Assembly: GCF_000234355.1 (NCBI RefSeq)
Contig: NZ_AGQV01000006.1
Coordinates: 1 to 64,000, forward strand
Length of the DNA stretch: 64,000 nt
Direction of reading: 5' to 3'
From: Gluconobacter morbifer G707
GTDB lineage: Bacteria; Pseudomonadota; Alphaproteobacteria; Acetobacterales; Acetobacteraceae
The notes beneath the pieces were generated by a model. It searched no databases, was not told the origin of the DNA, and worked only from the letters and a program-made list of their open reading frames with translations. This document shows, piece after piece, positions 26,337 to 29,313 of this stretch (the first letter of the stretch is position 1; the number at the start of each line of letters is the position of its first letter). The translations under genes and the position numbers were made by a program.

Positions 26337-27040
26337 GCCTGCGCCTTCTGGCTTTCAAGCGTTTTCCGGAGCAGTGGCACCAGCTGGGAGATATCGGTGA
26401 TGCGAACGAAGCCCGGCGCCGGCCAGAAGGCGGGCAGGGGAAGGCCTTCGGCACGGAGGAGAACACAGGCCATTCCCGCCCGGCGCGCGGCTTCCGCTCC
26501 GGTATCGCTGTCTTCGATCACGAGACAGGAATCCGGCGTTACGCCTTCCGCCTTCGCCGCGTACAGATAGACCTCCGGAGAGGGTTTGGGATGGTTCATG
26601 TCATTGGCGGAGTGAACACGGTTTTCGGGGAAAAACTGCATCATATGACAGGCCTGGAACTTGGCTTCCATCTCCCGGACGGAAGAATTCGATCCGACAC
26701 GAAACGGCACTCCCAGATGCCGCACGCCTTCGATCATTTCGGGCGCTCCCTCTACGGGAACTGCCATTTTCTTCATGAGCTGTACAAGGTTTTCGCGCAT
26801 TCTGAGTGCCGTATCGTCTGGCAGACTGTGCCCCAGATCATGCTCCATTTCCTTCACGATCTGGGGCAGCGCCTTGCCCATGAAACGGTCATACGCTTCC
26901 TGATCCGAGATTTTCAGTCCCTGGGAACGTGCGAATTCCGCTGTTGCACGGCAGGACGGCTTCTCGCTGTCCACCAGTACGCCATCGCAATCGAAAATGA
27001 TCAGCCTGAGATATCCGTTCGGATCAAGGGCGTTCGTCAT
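26333..27040 (-). CDS. HAD-superfamily hydrolase (phosphatase/phosphomutase-like)
   Basis: A 235-residue HAD protein: nucleophile motif LIIFDCDGVLVDSE, Ser/Thr motif RVGSNSS, Lys motif MNHPKPSPEVYLYAA and acidic VIEDSDTGAEAARRAGM. The helical cap inserted after motif I places it in the beta-phosphoglucomutase/phosphoglycolate phosphatase group. The substrate is unknown. It overlaps hemE upstream and hemJ downstream by four bases each, so it is embedded in the heme operon; whether it serves heme synthesis is not known. Confidence 0.88.
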   Translation of the reverse strand: MTNALDPNGYLRLIIFDCDGVLVDSEKPSCRATAEFARSQGLKISDQEAYDRFMGKALPQIVKEMEHDLGHSLPDDTALRMRENLVQLMKKMAVPVEGAPEMIEGVRHLGVPFRVGSNSSVREMEAKFQACHMMQFFPENRVHSANDMNHPKPSPEVYLYAAKAEGVTPDSCLVIEDSDTGAEAARRAGMACVLLRAEGLPLPAFWPAPGFVRITDISQLVPLLRKTLESQKAQA

Positions 27041-28086
27041 ATGGCGCGTACAGCCTCCACAAGTGCGGCAACATTTTCAGGCGGCGTATGCTGCATCACG
27101 CCGTGGCCGAGGTTGAAAACATGAGGTTTTCCGCGCATTGCATCACGAATGGCCTGTGCTTCACGAACCATCGGTTCGCCCCCGGCGAACAGGACCATCG
27201 GGTCCATGTTTCCCTGAAGCGTTACACCCGGCACGAGGTCGGAAATCTGCGCCGGATCAGCAACCGTATCCAGCGCCAGCGTGTTCACGCCGGTTTTTTC
27301 CGCATATTCCCGCACCATGATGCCGCCAAGCCGCGGGAAGCCAATGATCGGCGTCTGCGGATGACGTTCACGGATATGACGCACGATGCGCCGGGTTGGT
27401 TCAATCACATAGCGGCGGAAAGCGGAAGGCGGCAGGATTCCGGCCCAGGAATCGAACAGCATCACCGCTTCCGCCCCGGCTTCGATCTGGCCGCAGAGCA
27501 TCTCAGCAGTACTGGTCGTCAGGGTTTCGATCAGACGGTCGAAAAGAGCCGGTTCAGTCTGCATCATGGTGCGGGTATGGACGAAATCCCGTGATCCTCC
27601 GCCCTCGACCATGTAGCACGAAACCGTAAAAGGACTGCCGGCGAAGCCCAGGAGCGTTGTGACATCCGGCAGTTCCCGTGACAGGCGGAACAGTGTTTCC
27701 CGGACAGGAGCGGTAGCGTCCTTTACGTGGCGGGGATCAAGTTTCGCGAGATCGGCTTCGGAGCGGATTGCGCCCAGCACGGGGCCGCGTCCGTCAATGA
27801 ATTCAAGGGACTGACCCATGGCCCAGGGCAGGATCAGGATATCGGAAAACAGGATCGCCCCATCCATGCCGTAACGCCGGATCGGCTGGATGGTCAGTTC
27901 TGTTGCGATGTCGGGCGTCATGCAGCGGGTCAGGAAATCGGCCTTTTCGCGCATGGCGCGGAATTCCGGGAGGTAACGGCCGGCCTGACGCATCAGCCAG
28001 ATCGGAGGAGGCCAGACCGCTTCTCCCCTGAGAGCTCTGAGAAGCGGCTTTGCCGACGGAGAAGGTGATGCGTTTTCCAAAATCAT
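27037..28086 (-). CDS. hemE: Uroporphyrinogen decarboxylase HemE
   Basis: A 349-residue enzyme that converts uroporphyrinogen III to coproporphyrinogen III. The start at 28086 (MILENASPSPSAKPLLRALR) gives the usual length; the open frame continues upstream into the predicted origin but is not coding. Conserved: PIWLMRQAGRYLPEFR with the substrate-binding Arg residues, ILFSDILILPWAMG, LLGFAGSPFTVSCYMVEGGG, FDSWAGILPPSAFRR and the C-terminal FNLGHGVMQHTPPENVAALV. First gene of the hemE-HAD-hemJ operon. In several alphaproteobacteria hemE borders the chromosome origin. Confidence 0.97.
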   Translation of the reverse strand: MILENASPSPSAKPLLRALRGEAVWPPPIWLMRQAGRYLPEFRAMREKADFLTRCMTPDIATELTIQPIRRYGMDGAILFSDILILPWAMGQSLEFIDGRGPVLGAIRSEADLAKLDPRHVKDATAPVRETLFRLSRELPDVTTLLGFAGSPFTVSCYMVEGGGSRDFVHTRTMMQTEPALFDRLIETLTTSTAEMLCGQIEAGAEAVMLFDSWAGILPPSAFRRYVIEPTRRIVRHIRERHPQTPIIGFPRLGGIMVREYAEKTGVNTLALDTVADPAQISDLVPGVTLQGNMDPMVLFAGGEPMVREAQAIRDAMRGKPHVFNLGHGVMQHTPPENVAALVEAVRAI

Positions 28087-28439
28087 GCCGCCCACTAACC
28101 ATGAAAGAAAAAAGAAAGAAATCCTGGAGGGATAGATGAACCCTGTGGATACCGGGGTACCCGGCTTTCTGGAAATGTACCCCGTCTTACCCACACTGTG
28201 TACAACTCGCGACTCCCGGGTTTGCAAGGGATGGAGGATTCTATCCCGAATTGCCCACAGAAGGGCTGTGTACAACCCCCAGTTTCCGGAGGTGTACCCC
28301 TTCATCCACGGTACTCGGTACCCGATTTGTGGACTCGGAGTACTATCCCCATGTACCCCAGTACTGACACAATCCTTTCACAGGACTACCCGCAGTACTG
28401 ATGCAGGACCGGGCAGTCGATAGTACGGAGTCGTACTTC
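28087..28439. other. Predicted chromosomal origin of replication (oriC)
   Basis: A 353-bp non-coding segment between divergent hemE and maf. It contains DnaA-box-like 9-mers: TGTGGATAC at 28144-28152, TTACCCACA at 28187-28195, TTGCCCACA at 28251-28259, and weaker TCATCCACG near 28302. A purine-rich, A-rich tract (28103-28121) next to hemE could be an unwinding element. Three GANTC sites (CcrM-type methylation) lie inside. GTAC occurs 13 times between 28157 and 28436. Known from the family: Caulobacter and Rickettsia origins lie beside hemE. The nearby parAB/parS supports this. The assignment is an inference, not proof. Confidence 0.72.
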
Positions 28440-29051
28440 ATGACCATGTTGAGTACTTCGCTGATCCTTGCCAGTGGTTCTTCTGCACGGAGGATGCTGC
28501 TGGAGAACAGTGGTCTGTCCGTCATCTGCCGTCCCGTGGATCTGGATGAAGAGTCCCTTCGGCTTCAATGTCAGGATCAGGGCCGGTCCCTGGCTGAGAC
28601 CGCCATTGCCCTTGCCGATGCGAAAGCTGATCTGGCGTCCCGGGTTGCCGGGCCGGGCAAGCTGATCGTGGCGGCGGACCAGATCCTGGATCTGGAAGGC
28701 GAGGCGTTTGCAAAACCCCGTTCCTTTCAGGAGGCTCGACGGCACCTGCTGCGGTTGCGCAACCGGACCCATACCCTGCAATCCGCCGTGGTTCTGTACA
28801 GAGGAAAAGAGAAGCTGTGGGCTCATGTAGCGTCTCCTGTTCTGACCATGCGGAATTTTTCGGATGGTTTTCTGGACGCCTATCTGGCCCGGGAAGGAGA
28901 GGAGATCCTCTCCTGTGTCGGAGCCTACCGACTGGAAGGACTGGGCATTCAGCTTTTCTCGGAAATCCACGGCACCCATGATGCCATCCTTGGTCTGCCC
29001 GTGCTGCCGCTGCTGGATGTCCTGCGGAAGATAAAAGTGCTGGAGAGCTGA
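28440..29051 (+). CDS. maf: Maf-family nucleotide pyrophosphatase
   Basis: A 203-residue Maf/Ham1-like pyrophosphatase. The N terminus has the phosphate-binding LILASGSSARRMLLENSGLS. Then AKLIVAADQILDLEG-like sequence (here GKLIVAADQILDLEGEAFAK), the catalytic region FQEARRHLLRLRNRTHTLQS, and GAYRLEGLGIQLFSEIHGTH. Maf proteins hydrolyse modified or canonical NTPs to the monophosphates. Start is ATG at 28440 or 28446. The first codons abut the predicted origin, divergent from hemE. Confidence 0.92.
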   Translation: MTMLSTSLILASGSSARRMLLENSGLSVICRPVDLDEESLRLQCQDQGRSLAETAIALADAKADLASRVAGPGKLIVAADQILDLEGEAFAKPRSFQEARRHLLRLRNRTHTLQSAVVLYRGKEKLWAHVASPVLTMRNFSDGFLDAYLAREGEEILSCVGAYRLEGLGIQLFSEIHGTHDAILGLPVLPLLDVLRKIKVLES

Positions 29052-29144
29052 AAAATCTTCTTTTGACGCTTGTCAGGGGAGAATCAGGGCGATATACCGC
29101 CCTCATCCGGTCCCACCCCAATGGGATTGTCGATGAAACAGTGT

Positions 29145-29220
<76 letters not shown>

Positions 29221-29313
29221 GTTTCCTCTTTTTCTCCTGAAAATTGATTTTCTTGTTTTTTCGCTGATGCGGAGTTGCGTCGTCCTGTTCAGGCGATGGC
29301 GTTGACGGATGGA

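Follow-up and report, generated by a model that had tools for sequence, protein, structure and literature searches.

Initiation at the Escherichia coli origin is limited to once per cycle by Dam together with SeqA, and to our knowledge this Dam/SeqA system is the only case in which control of an origin by DNA methylation has been well worked out. A few analogues have been predicted; with GATC included, four cases are described in which clusters of GATC, TTAA, CTCGAG, or CATG at origins go together with orphan enzymes (Blow et al. 2016, PMC4752239, from the available part of that text). GTAC, Acetobacter, and Gluconobacter do not occur in its main text. In Rhodobacter blasticus 28/5, GTAC carries N4-methylcytosine (m4C) that was assigned to M.RsaI (PMC6256690). 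The Caulobacter origin is located beside hemE (PMC1914354, accessible portion). For acetic acid bacteria (AAB), no paper on GTAC methylation or on a GTAC origin was found among the matches listed in the open PubMed Central subset.

Here, we analyzed a stretch of 64,000 nucleotides from Gluconobacter morbifer G707 (contig NZ_AGQV01000006.1, positions 1 to 64,000; "the window"). An origin packed with GTAC, combined with a lone methylating enzyme of the GTAC type, suggests that a GTAC mark helps to time chromosome copying in AAB.

Results

A GTAC cluster occupies the gap between hemE and maf

The two genes flanking the gap are assumed to be hemE and maf, names that were adopted from the original prediction made for this DNA. 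The features of the locus are listed below by window position; "rows" are those of the 30-row alignment described in the next section.

27040 to 28086, minus strand: presumed hemE, uroporphyrinogen decarboxylase; start codon 28084-28086, stop codon 27037-27039
28087 to 28439, no strand assigned: intergenic origin region bounded by the start codons of hemE and maf; 13 GTAC; two relatives have their skew minimum at the corresponding position
28103 to 28121, plus strand: A-rich purine tract beside hemE, conserved (several A columns kept in 90% or more of the 30 rows); candidate unwinding element
28144 to 28163, plus strand: DnaA-box-like TGTGGATAC, then GGGGTACCC, the hemE-proximal GTAC element (from alignment and box scan)
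28175 to 28183, plus strand: ATGTACCCC; GTAC column in 27/27 AAB rows
28187 to 28195, plus strand: DnaA-box-like TTACCCACA, 1 mismatch
28196 to 28206, plus strand: CTGTGTACAAC, the DnaA-box-like 9-mer TGTGTACAA with GTAC at its center; GTAC column in 27/27 AAB rows
28266 to 28276, plus strand: CTGTGTACAAC, second copy; GTAC column in 27/27 AAB rows
28291 to 28300, plus strand: GGTGTACCCC; GTAC column in 14/27 AAB rows
28302 to 28321, plus strand: TCATCCACGGTACTCGGTAC, a pair of GTAC with a degenerate DnaA box; GTAC columns in 27/27 and 26/27 AAB rows
28340 to 28365, plus strand: GTACTATCCCCATGTACCCCAGTACT, three conserved GTAC (27, 27, and 25 of 27 AAB rows) plus DnaA-like CTATCCCCA (2 mismatches)
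28395 to 28456, plus strand: maf-side GTAC at 28395, 28423, 28433, and 28453; 28423 in 23/27 AAB rows, 28395 and 28433 in 12 and 8 of 27
28211 to 28432, no strand assigned: four GANTC (CcrM-type) sites, at 28211, 28237, 28332, and 28428
28440 to 29051, plus strand: maf-like gene, presumed maf; its codons contain the 14th GTAC (28453)

The gap of 353 bp contains 13 GTAC, spanning 28157 to 28436, versus 0.43 expected when the remainder of the window is taken as reference (Poisson probability of at least 13, 2e-15). These coordinates and that of the 14th copy had been given correctly in the original prediction, as had the places of the longer repeated words (ATGTACCCC at 28175 and again at 28351, GGTGTACCCC at 28291, and CTGTGTACAAC at 28196 and 28266). 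Outside the gap, no segment of 353 bp in the window contained more than 3 GTAC. Among the palindromic tetramers only GTAC was strongly enriched in the gap, with CCGG as the runner-up (5 versus 3.4). When the forward strand of the 2.89-Mb draft genome was scanned for GTAC-N0-28-GTAC-N0-28-GTAC, 8 of 19 matches fell inside the hemE-maf gap and the remaining 11 were scattered singles, except for one overlapping pair; this triple-GTAC scan of the draft genome detected no second cluster like the one between hemE and maf. The flanks vary among the GTAC sites within one origin, and GTAC alone is common to all of them.

DnaA-box-like 9-mers are interspersed between these sites as had been claimed, two of them with one mismatch (28144 and 28187) and five with two, and a perfect DnaA box is absent from the gap. 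Of the DnaA boxes and AT-rich element expected at a hemE-linked alphaproteobacterial origin, only these degenerate boxes and the short A-rich tract were seen. For GANTC, three sites had been reported; we counted four, versus 0.55 expected. Given this enrichment of the CcrM motif at the same origin, two methylation motifs may act there.

Other identities of the gap were considered. CtrA sites have the form TTAA-N7-TTAA, and the half-site TTAA does not occur at all in 28087-28456, so that no CtrA-type site is present and a CtrA-controlled origin of the Caulobacter type was rejected. A mobile element or plasmid origin was dismissed because no plasmid match was obtained at distant sensitivity, and a structured RNA because nothing but a tRNA reached its gathering score in 27500-29300. 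This tRNA gene is located at 29145-29217, ~90 bp downstream of maf.

The cluster is conserved across acetic acid bacteria and has moved in one group

Eighty hemE loci were compared. In 60 of them maf was placed; the 20 without a placed maf, which include two metagenome-assembled genomes (MAGs) labelled Asaia bogorensis (L043 and L064), were left uncounted. All 31 maf-placed loci of six genera contained 11 to 16 GTAC in the gap (Gluconobacter, 9; Acetobacter, 10; Komagataeibacter, 6; Gluconacetobacter, 2; Novacetimonas, 2; Asaia, 2; two of the Acetobacter loci and one of the Gluconobacter loci are from MAGs). Three further loci (two MAGs and Endobacter) had 6 to 7 GTAC, six loci of the Bombella-Saccharibacter group had 0 to 1, and the other 20, which are more distant, had 0 to 4 in ~1.1 to 1.5 kb.

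Alignment of 30 rows revealed that the gap is conserved at the base level across genera. GTAC was present in all 27 AAB rows in seven columns and in 26 and 25 rows in two more; the comparison across relatives that had been proposed with the original prediction thus yielded nine columns with GTAC in at least 25/27 AAB rows. Single-genus columns accounted for 18 of the 34 GTAC columns (a few of these may be alignment splits), and such turnover of sites at a steadily high GTAC number suits selection for the tetramer. It might be argued that a short, repetitive intergenic region accumulates GTAC by chance or through its composition. The dinucleotides of the gap itself do lift the expectation, but only to 2.3, and in view of the P value of ~2e-15 and of recurrence in 31/31 loci from six genera, at positions that turn over, we ruled out such an artefact as vanishingly improbable.

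From the 0 to 1 GTAC in the gaps of the Bombella-Saccharibacter group it could have been concluded that the cluster was lost in Bombella. This was refuted, since the cluster was found elsewhere in 5/5 genomes examined (G207, G208, G209, G210, and G249; the sixth low-GTAC locus of the group, L011, lies outside these five). Bombella, Parasaccharibacter, Saccharibacter, and a related MAG carry an intact cluster with recognizable origin words away from hemE-maf. In G207 the moved cluster is located at C10:55520-55719, and hemE lies near 77 kb on a contig of equal length (396,480 bases). In G208 it is located at C12:42196-42411, and hemE lies near 62 kb on a contig of 255,803 bases that is numbered C12 in G101, which appears to be the same genome. 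Further moved clusters are at G209:C2:346120-346319 and G249:C6:49031-49195. L240 (G207) and L242 (G210) are moved-cluster loci as well. Bombella and Saccharibacter retain both the enzyme described below and the cluster, although the cluster has left hemE. Overall, GTAC clusters were present in every AAB lineage looked at but one.

GC skew supports the hemE-maf gap as the replication origin

Since the genome of the window is a draft of 19 contigs, we tested skew in two relatives that are assembled as one contig and carry the cluster, Commensalibacter (G234) and G149. Coarse skew (20 stretches of 12 kb each) changed sign close to hemE and again at roughly half a chromosome's distance. At finer scale, the cumulative G-C minimum of Commensalibacter was clear and fell in the 2-kb bin centered at 1,997,001, with the cluster at 1,996,998-1,997,168. 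That of G149 fell in the 2-kb bin at 3,193,001 but was shallow (-1390 versus -1366 ~14 kb further on); here hemE starts at 3,192,702, with the cluster just upstream (11 GTAC within 450 bp). The dnaA genes lie at 1.01 Mb in Commensalibacter and 1.33 Mb in G149, far from the cluster in both, and the origin is therefore not at dnaA in these genomes. In Commensalibacter, dnaA is about half a chromosome off the origin and near the skew maximum; in G149, its contig measures 3.2 Mb.

Skew in the two relatives and conservation across genera support the hemE-maf gap as the chromosome replication origin of this Gluconobacter-like acetic acid bacterium. The predicted origin, as well as the skew check suggested for it, has in this respect held up: the minimum was at the cluster and not elsewhere, if shallow in G149. 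Published placings differ. In Acetobacter pasteurianus 386B, oriC was predicted near dnaA (PMC3751514, available part), which conflicts with a place between hemE and maf, and in Acetobacter cerevisiae KSO5 it was assigned, together with at least seven DnaA boxes, to the GC-skew maximum (PMC13209655, available part) and not to the minimum as here. The place of the Caulobacter origin, as given in the accessible portion of PMC1914354, agrees with ours. The GTAC cluster could serve as an origin marker for AAB genomes, for which such predictions differ.

An orphan methyltransferase related to RsaI systems

A PF01555 search of the genome of the window (G000) returned three genes, encoding a presumably CcrM-like enzyme with a neighbor that we take to be rnhB-like, a 1006-aa methyltransferase, and P0001:

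G000:C19:625722-626573, outside the window: P0001, orphan methyltransferase, 284 aa

The 1006-aa methyltransferase (L113, G000:C16) stands beside a ~227-aa gene that is a possible restriction partner, and this pair resembles a restriction-modification system. The neighborhood of P0001 consists of secB, tim44, mltA, P0001, cytochrome c peroxidase, and smr, with an mltA match that scores below NCBIfam's own cutoff. No cognate endonuclease was seen among these identified neighbors, and a query with an RsaI-type endonuclease gave no match in G000 in a search run without a positive control. mltA precedes the P0001 homologue in G067 and G143, too, and was found directly upstream of the enzyme gene in 60 of 86 loci compared, a number that includes genomes fetched twice. 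The other 26 comprised 13 loci with too little upstream DNA, 6 phage or plasmid records, and 7 Acetobacteraceae without detectable mltA. This shared mltA-P0001 neighborhood points to vertical inheritance.

At a threshold of E = 1e-20, 92 of the 200 Acetobacteraceae genomes searched contained a relative of P0001 (weak in three, with E of ~1e-22), and at 1e-15 so did 40 of the 50 genomes reached via hemE loci. These 40 comprise 36/36 AAB and near-AAB genomes, three Acidisoma (50 to 52% identity), and one MAG; no match was obtained in two Roseomonas, two Azospirillum, two Niveispirillum, Hyphomicrobium, Acidocella, and two MAGs. Within a class-wide sample, the P0001 type occurred in 3 of 289 genomes, all of them Acetobacteraceae.

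The closest relatives found outside Acetobacteraceae were a Paracoccus plasmid gene (50% identity), a gene of an uncultured phage (48%), and cyanophage genes (45 to 47%). The homologue in each of the cyanophages ACG-2014j and Syn19 (45 to 46%) overlaps a gene annotated by the depositors as "R.RsaI endonuclease"; Syn2 has the same gene pair under other names, and in ACG-2014f the enzyme adjoins genes annotated otherwise, not as RsaI. The phage "R.RsaI" gene matched neither Pfam nor NCBIfam entries, gave a weak REase_II match in PADLOC (E of 1.4e-3), and had no relatives in a 398-genome search that lacked a positive control. In a tree, P0001, its orthologues, the phage genes, and the Paracoccus alcaliphilus gene formed a 36-member group apart from CcrM and others (95/83), inside which branching was poorly resolved. 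TSPPY, DPF.G.GT, and many noncatalytic residues were near-invariant in the 36 rows, phage enzymes included. Based on this homology of 45 to 50% and on the depositors' names, P0001 is predicted to recognize GTAC; homology and the TSPPY motif indicate that its product is probably N4-methylcytosine. The P. alcaliphilus relative (L177, plasmid p305818) looks like an orphan itself: it is next to an IS4 transposase, has no annotated endonuclease directly adjoining, and lies ~2 kb from a GIY-YIG nuclease gene.

The cluster is found only with the enzyme

GTAC was counted in the 450 bp upstream of hemE in a first set of 40 enzyme-bearing and 20 enzyme-lacking genomes, which were hand-chosen and whose members are, as kin, not independent. 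Enzyme-lacking genomes had 0 to 2 GTAC (mean, 0.55), none of the 20 exceeding 2. Enzyme-bearing genomes had 0 to 11 (mean, 2.9), with at least 5 in 8/40 and no more than 4 in 32/40. All members of a second set of 20 further enzyme-bearing genomes contained 6 to 14 GTAC within 450 bp of hemE; their hemE genes are 54 to 75% identical to that of the window, and few were placed in the hemE tree. One of them, G157, probably lies outside the AAB, like its congener G100. The association is one-way: the cluster implies the enzyme, and many enzyme-bearing genomes are GTAC-poor, so that a strict two-way association was rejected on the 32/40.

Presence of the enzyme without a cluster at hemE means that it has one or more additional roles or else reflects a simpler and older state. 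In Acidisoma (G231), the only such lineage scanned genome-wide, a displaced origin-like cluster was not found. One might go further and assume that the GTAC sites are methylated but that the enzyme serves mismatch repair, gene regulation, or protection against RsaI-type restriction by phages or plasmids, the origin being only a sensitive mark with no part in timing. The 32 genomes mentioned above would fit such a role, and so would the phage relatives of the enzyme in their apparent restriction-modification pairs. A general role, however, would not need enrichment at the origin alone, and the cluster is unique in the genome, coincides with the skew minimum, and has persisted where the origin moved; we regard this explanation as quite improbable.

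In the first set, a GTAC 44 to 93 bp upstream of hemE was found in 31/40 enzyme-bearing versus 5/20 enzyme-lacking genomes, and GGGTACC-type words occurred in 31/40 versus 2/20 regions. The distances of these hemE-proximal sites and the GGGTACC-type words suggest an ancestral single GTAC site at the origin that was multiplied later.

The AAB lineage without a cluster consists of G066, G029, and G116, which in the hemE tree form one clade (100/98) nested in the 11-row AAB set (100/99). Neither a match to the enzyme nor a GTAC cluster was detected in these three genomes, which had isolated triples only, plus a GTACT microsatellite in G116 [(GTACT)n at G116:C1:536876-536914]. The joint absence concerns one clade in a single-gene tree with long branches and, if read as loss, is one event. 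Perfect DnaA boxes in the homologous region number 14 in G066, 2 in G029, and 1 in G116, and the G066 origin has apparently been rebuilt with consensus boxes. At L233 (G066:C1:947939-949138) and L244, the 14 perfect boxes (TTATCCACA/TGTGGATAA) and zero GTAC are found in the 1.2 kb upstream of hemE. A clade without enzyme and cluster, with a member carrying perfect DnaA boxes instead, represents a natural control experiment.

GTAC lies inside DnaA-box-like words

The word TGTGTACAA, with GTAC at its center, differs from TGTGGATAA at two positions and occurs twice in the gap and nowhere else in the window. It was present 1 to 3 times in 19/20 enzyme-bearing regions of the second set and in 7/40 of the first (among them that of the cluster-free G111), compared to 0/20 enzyme-lacking regions. 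Perfect TTATCCACA boxes were absent from 19/20 second-set regions, the exception being G157. These distributions would be in line with GTAC words that are not methylated at all but bind a lineage-specific protein or an altered DnaA, with TGTGTACAA as the family's own DnaA box; the nine nearly fixed GTAC columns with their conserved flanks and the exchange of GTAC for perfect boxes in the enzyme-lacking G066 argue in the same direction. Still, we consider simple binding sites unlikely, because the flanks differ among sites of one origin, which share GTAC alone, because lineage-specific GTAC sites arise without a fixed flank, and because the one AAB clade without the RsaI-type enzyme is also without the cluster. 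The original prediction had left room for an unrecognized family of initiator or regulator sites. This was right in spirit but can be narrowed: targets of methylation are likelier than sites of an unknown initiator, since the shared core is GTAC only and is accompanied by an orphan RsaI-type methyltransferase.

Discussion

We think it likely that the GTAC sites of the origin are targets of the orphan RsaI-type methyltransferase P0001 and that their methylation controls initiation. We infer that the origin sites are methylated in vivo and, by analogy with Dam/GATC, that this methylation may time initiation. In such a mechanism, P0001 would methylate GTAC on both strands, probably forming m4C, and a passing fork would leave the GTAC cluster hemimethylated. 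Hemimethylation could then alter the loading of DnaA, either directly at GTAC-containing boxes such as TGTGTACAA or via a reader protein, and altered loading would limit initiation to once per cycle. A bolder version, which we put forward only tentatively and with more doubt than confidence, is that m4C-GTAC acts as a replication licence in AAB: a domesticated RsaI-type enzyme and a rebuilt origin with GTAC inside the DnaA boxes would gate DnaA loading directly, without a SeqA-type reader and alongside CcrM/GANTC.

AAB, an industrially important family, appear to have evolved their own origin control from a restriction methyltransferase. This opens testable questions on how restriction enzymes become cell cycle regulators, on m4C in the control of bacterial replication, and on methylation inside DnaA boxes. 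In addition, a GTAC origin could provide a design rule for replicating vectors.

Comparison with known systems

Sequence and tree, as judged from the phage members, place P0001 in the enzyme family of the RsaI restriction-modification systems (R. blasticus 28/5; cyanophages Syn19 and ACG-2014j), with the expected target GTAC. Unlike in those systems, P0001 resides in a tim44-mltA-smr neighborhood, and an RsaI-type endonuclease was not matched in G000 (search without positive control). As in Caulobacter Cori, the origin is beside hemE (PMC1914354, accessible portion), a presumably CcrM-like gene is present, and the gap here contains 4 GANTC; in contrast, the gap lacks TTAA, its other flank is maf instead of COG1806, and a GTAC cluster and a second orphan enzyme are added.

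With Dam/GATC at E. coli oriC, the AAB system shares an orphan methyltransferase and a dense origin cluster of its tetranucleotide, which co-occur across genomes (for Dam, PMC4752239, available part). Traits of this kind that we observed are a significant noncoding cluster of the motif at the origin, its conservation in relatives, and its occurrence only with the orphan enzyme; the converse fails. The differences are the tetranucleotide itself, GTAC, an RsaI-type enzyme that probably forms m4C and not m6A, the absence of a known SeqA, and another bacterial class and origin place. The systems of Blow et al. 2016 (TTAA in Arthrobacter, CTCGAG in Nocardia, and CATG with m4C in haloarchaea; PMC4752239, available part) likewise combine a noncoding motif cluster at a putative origin with a conserved orphan enzyme, with which it correlates. 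Compared with these, as far as the available text describes them, the AAB cluster moves with the origin, is missing alongside the enzyme in one clade, and has GTAC inside DnaA-box-like words. Next to the four cases in the available part of that study, GTAC in AAB would be a fifth, and a variant in which the methylation motif is built into DnaA-box-like words.
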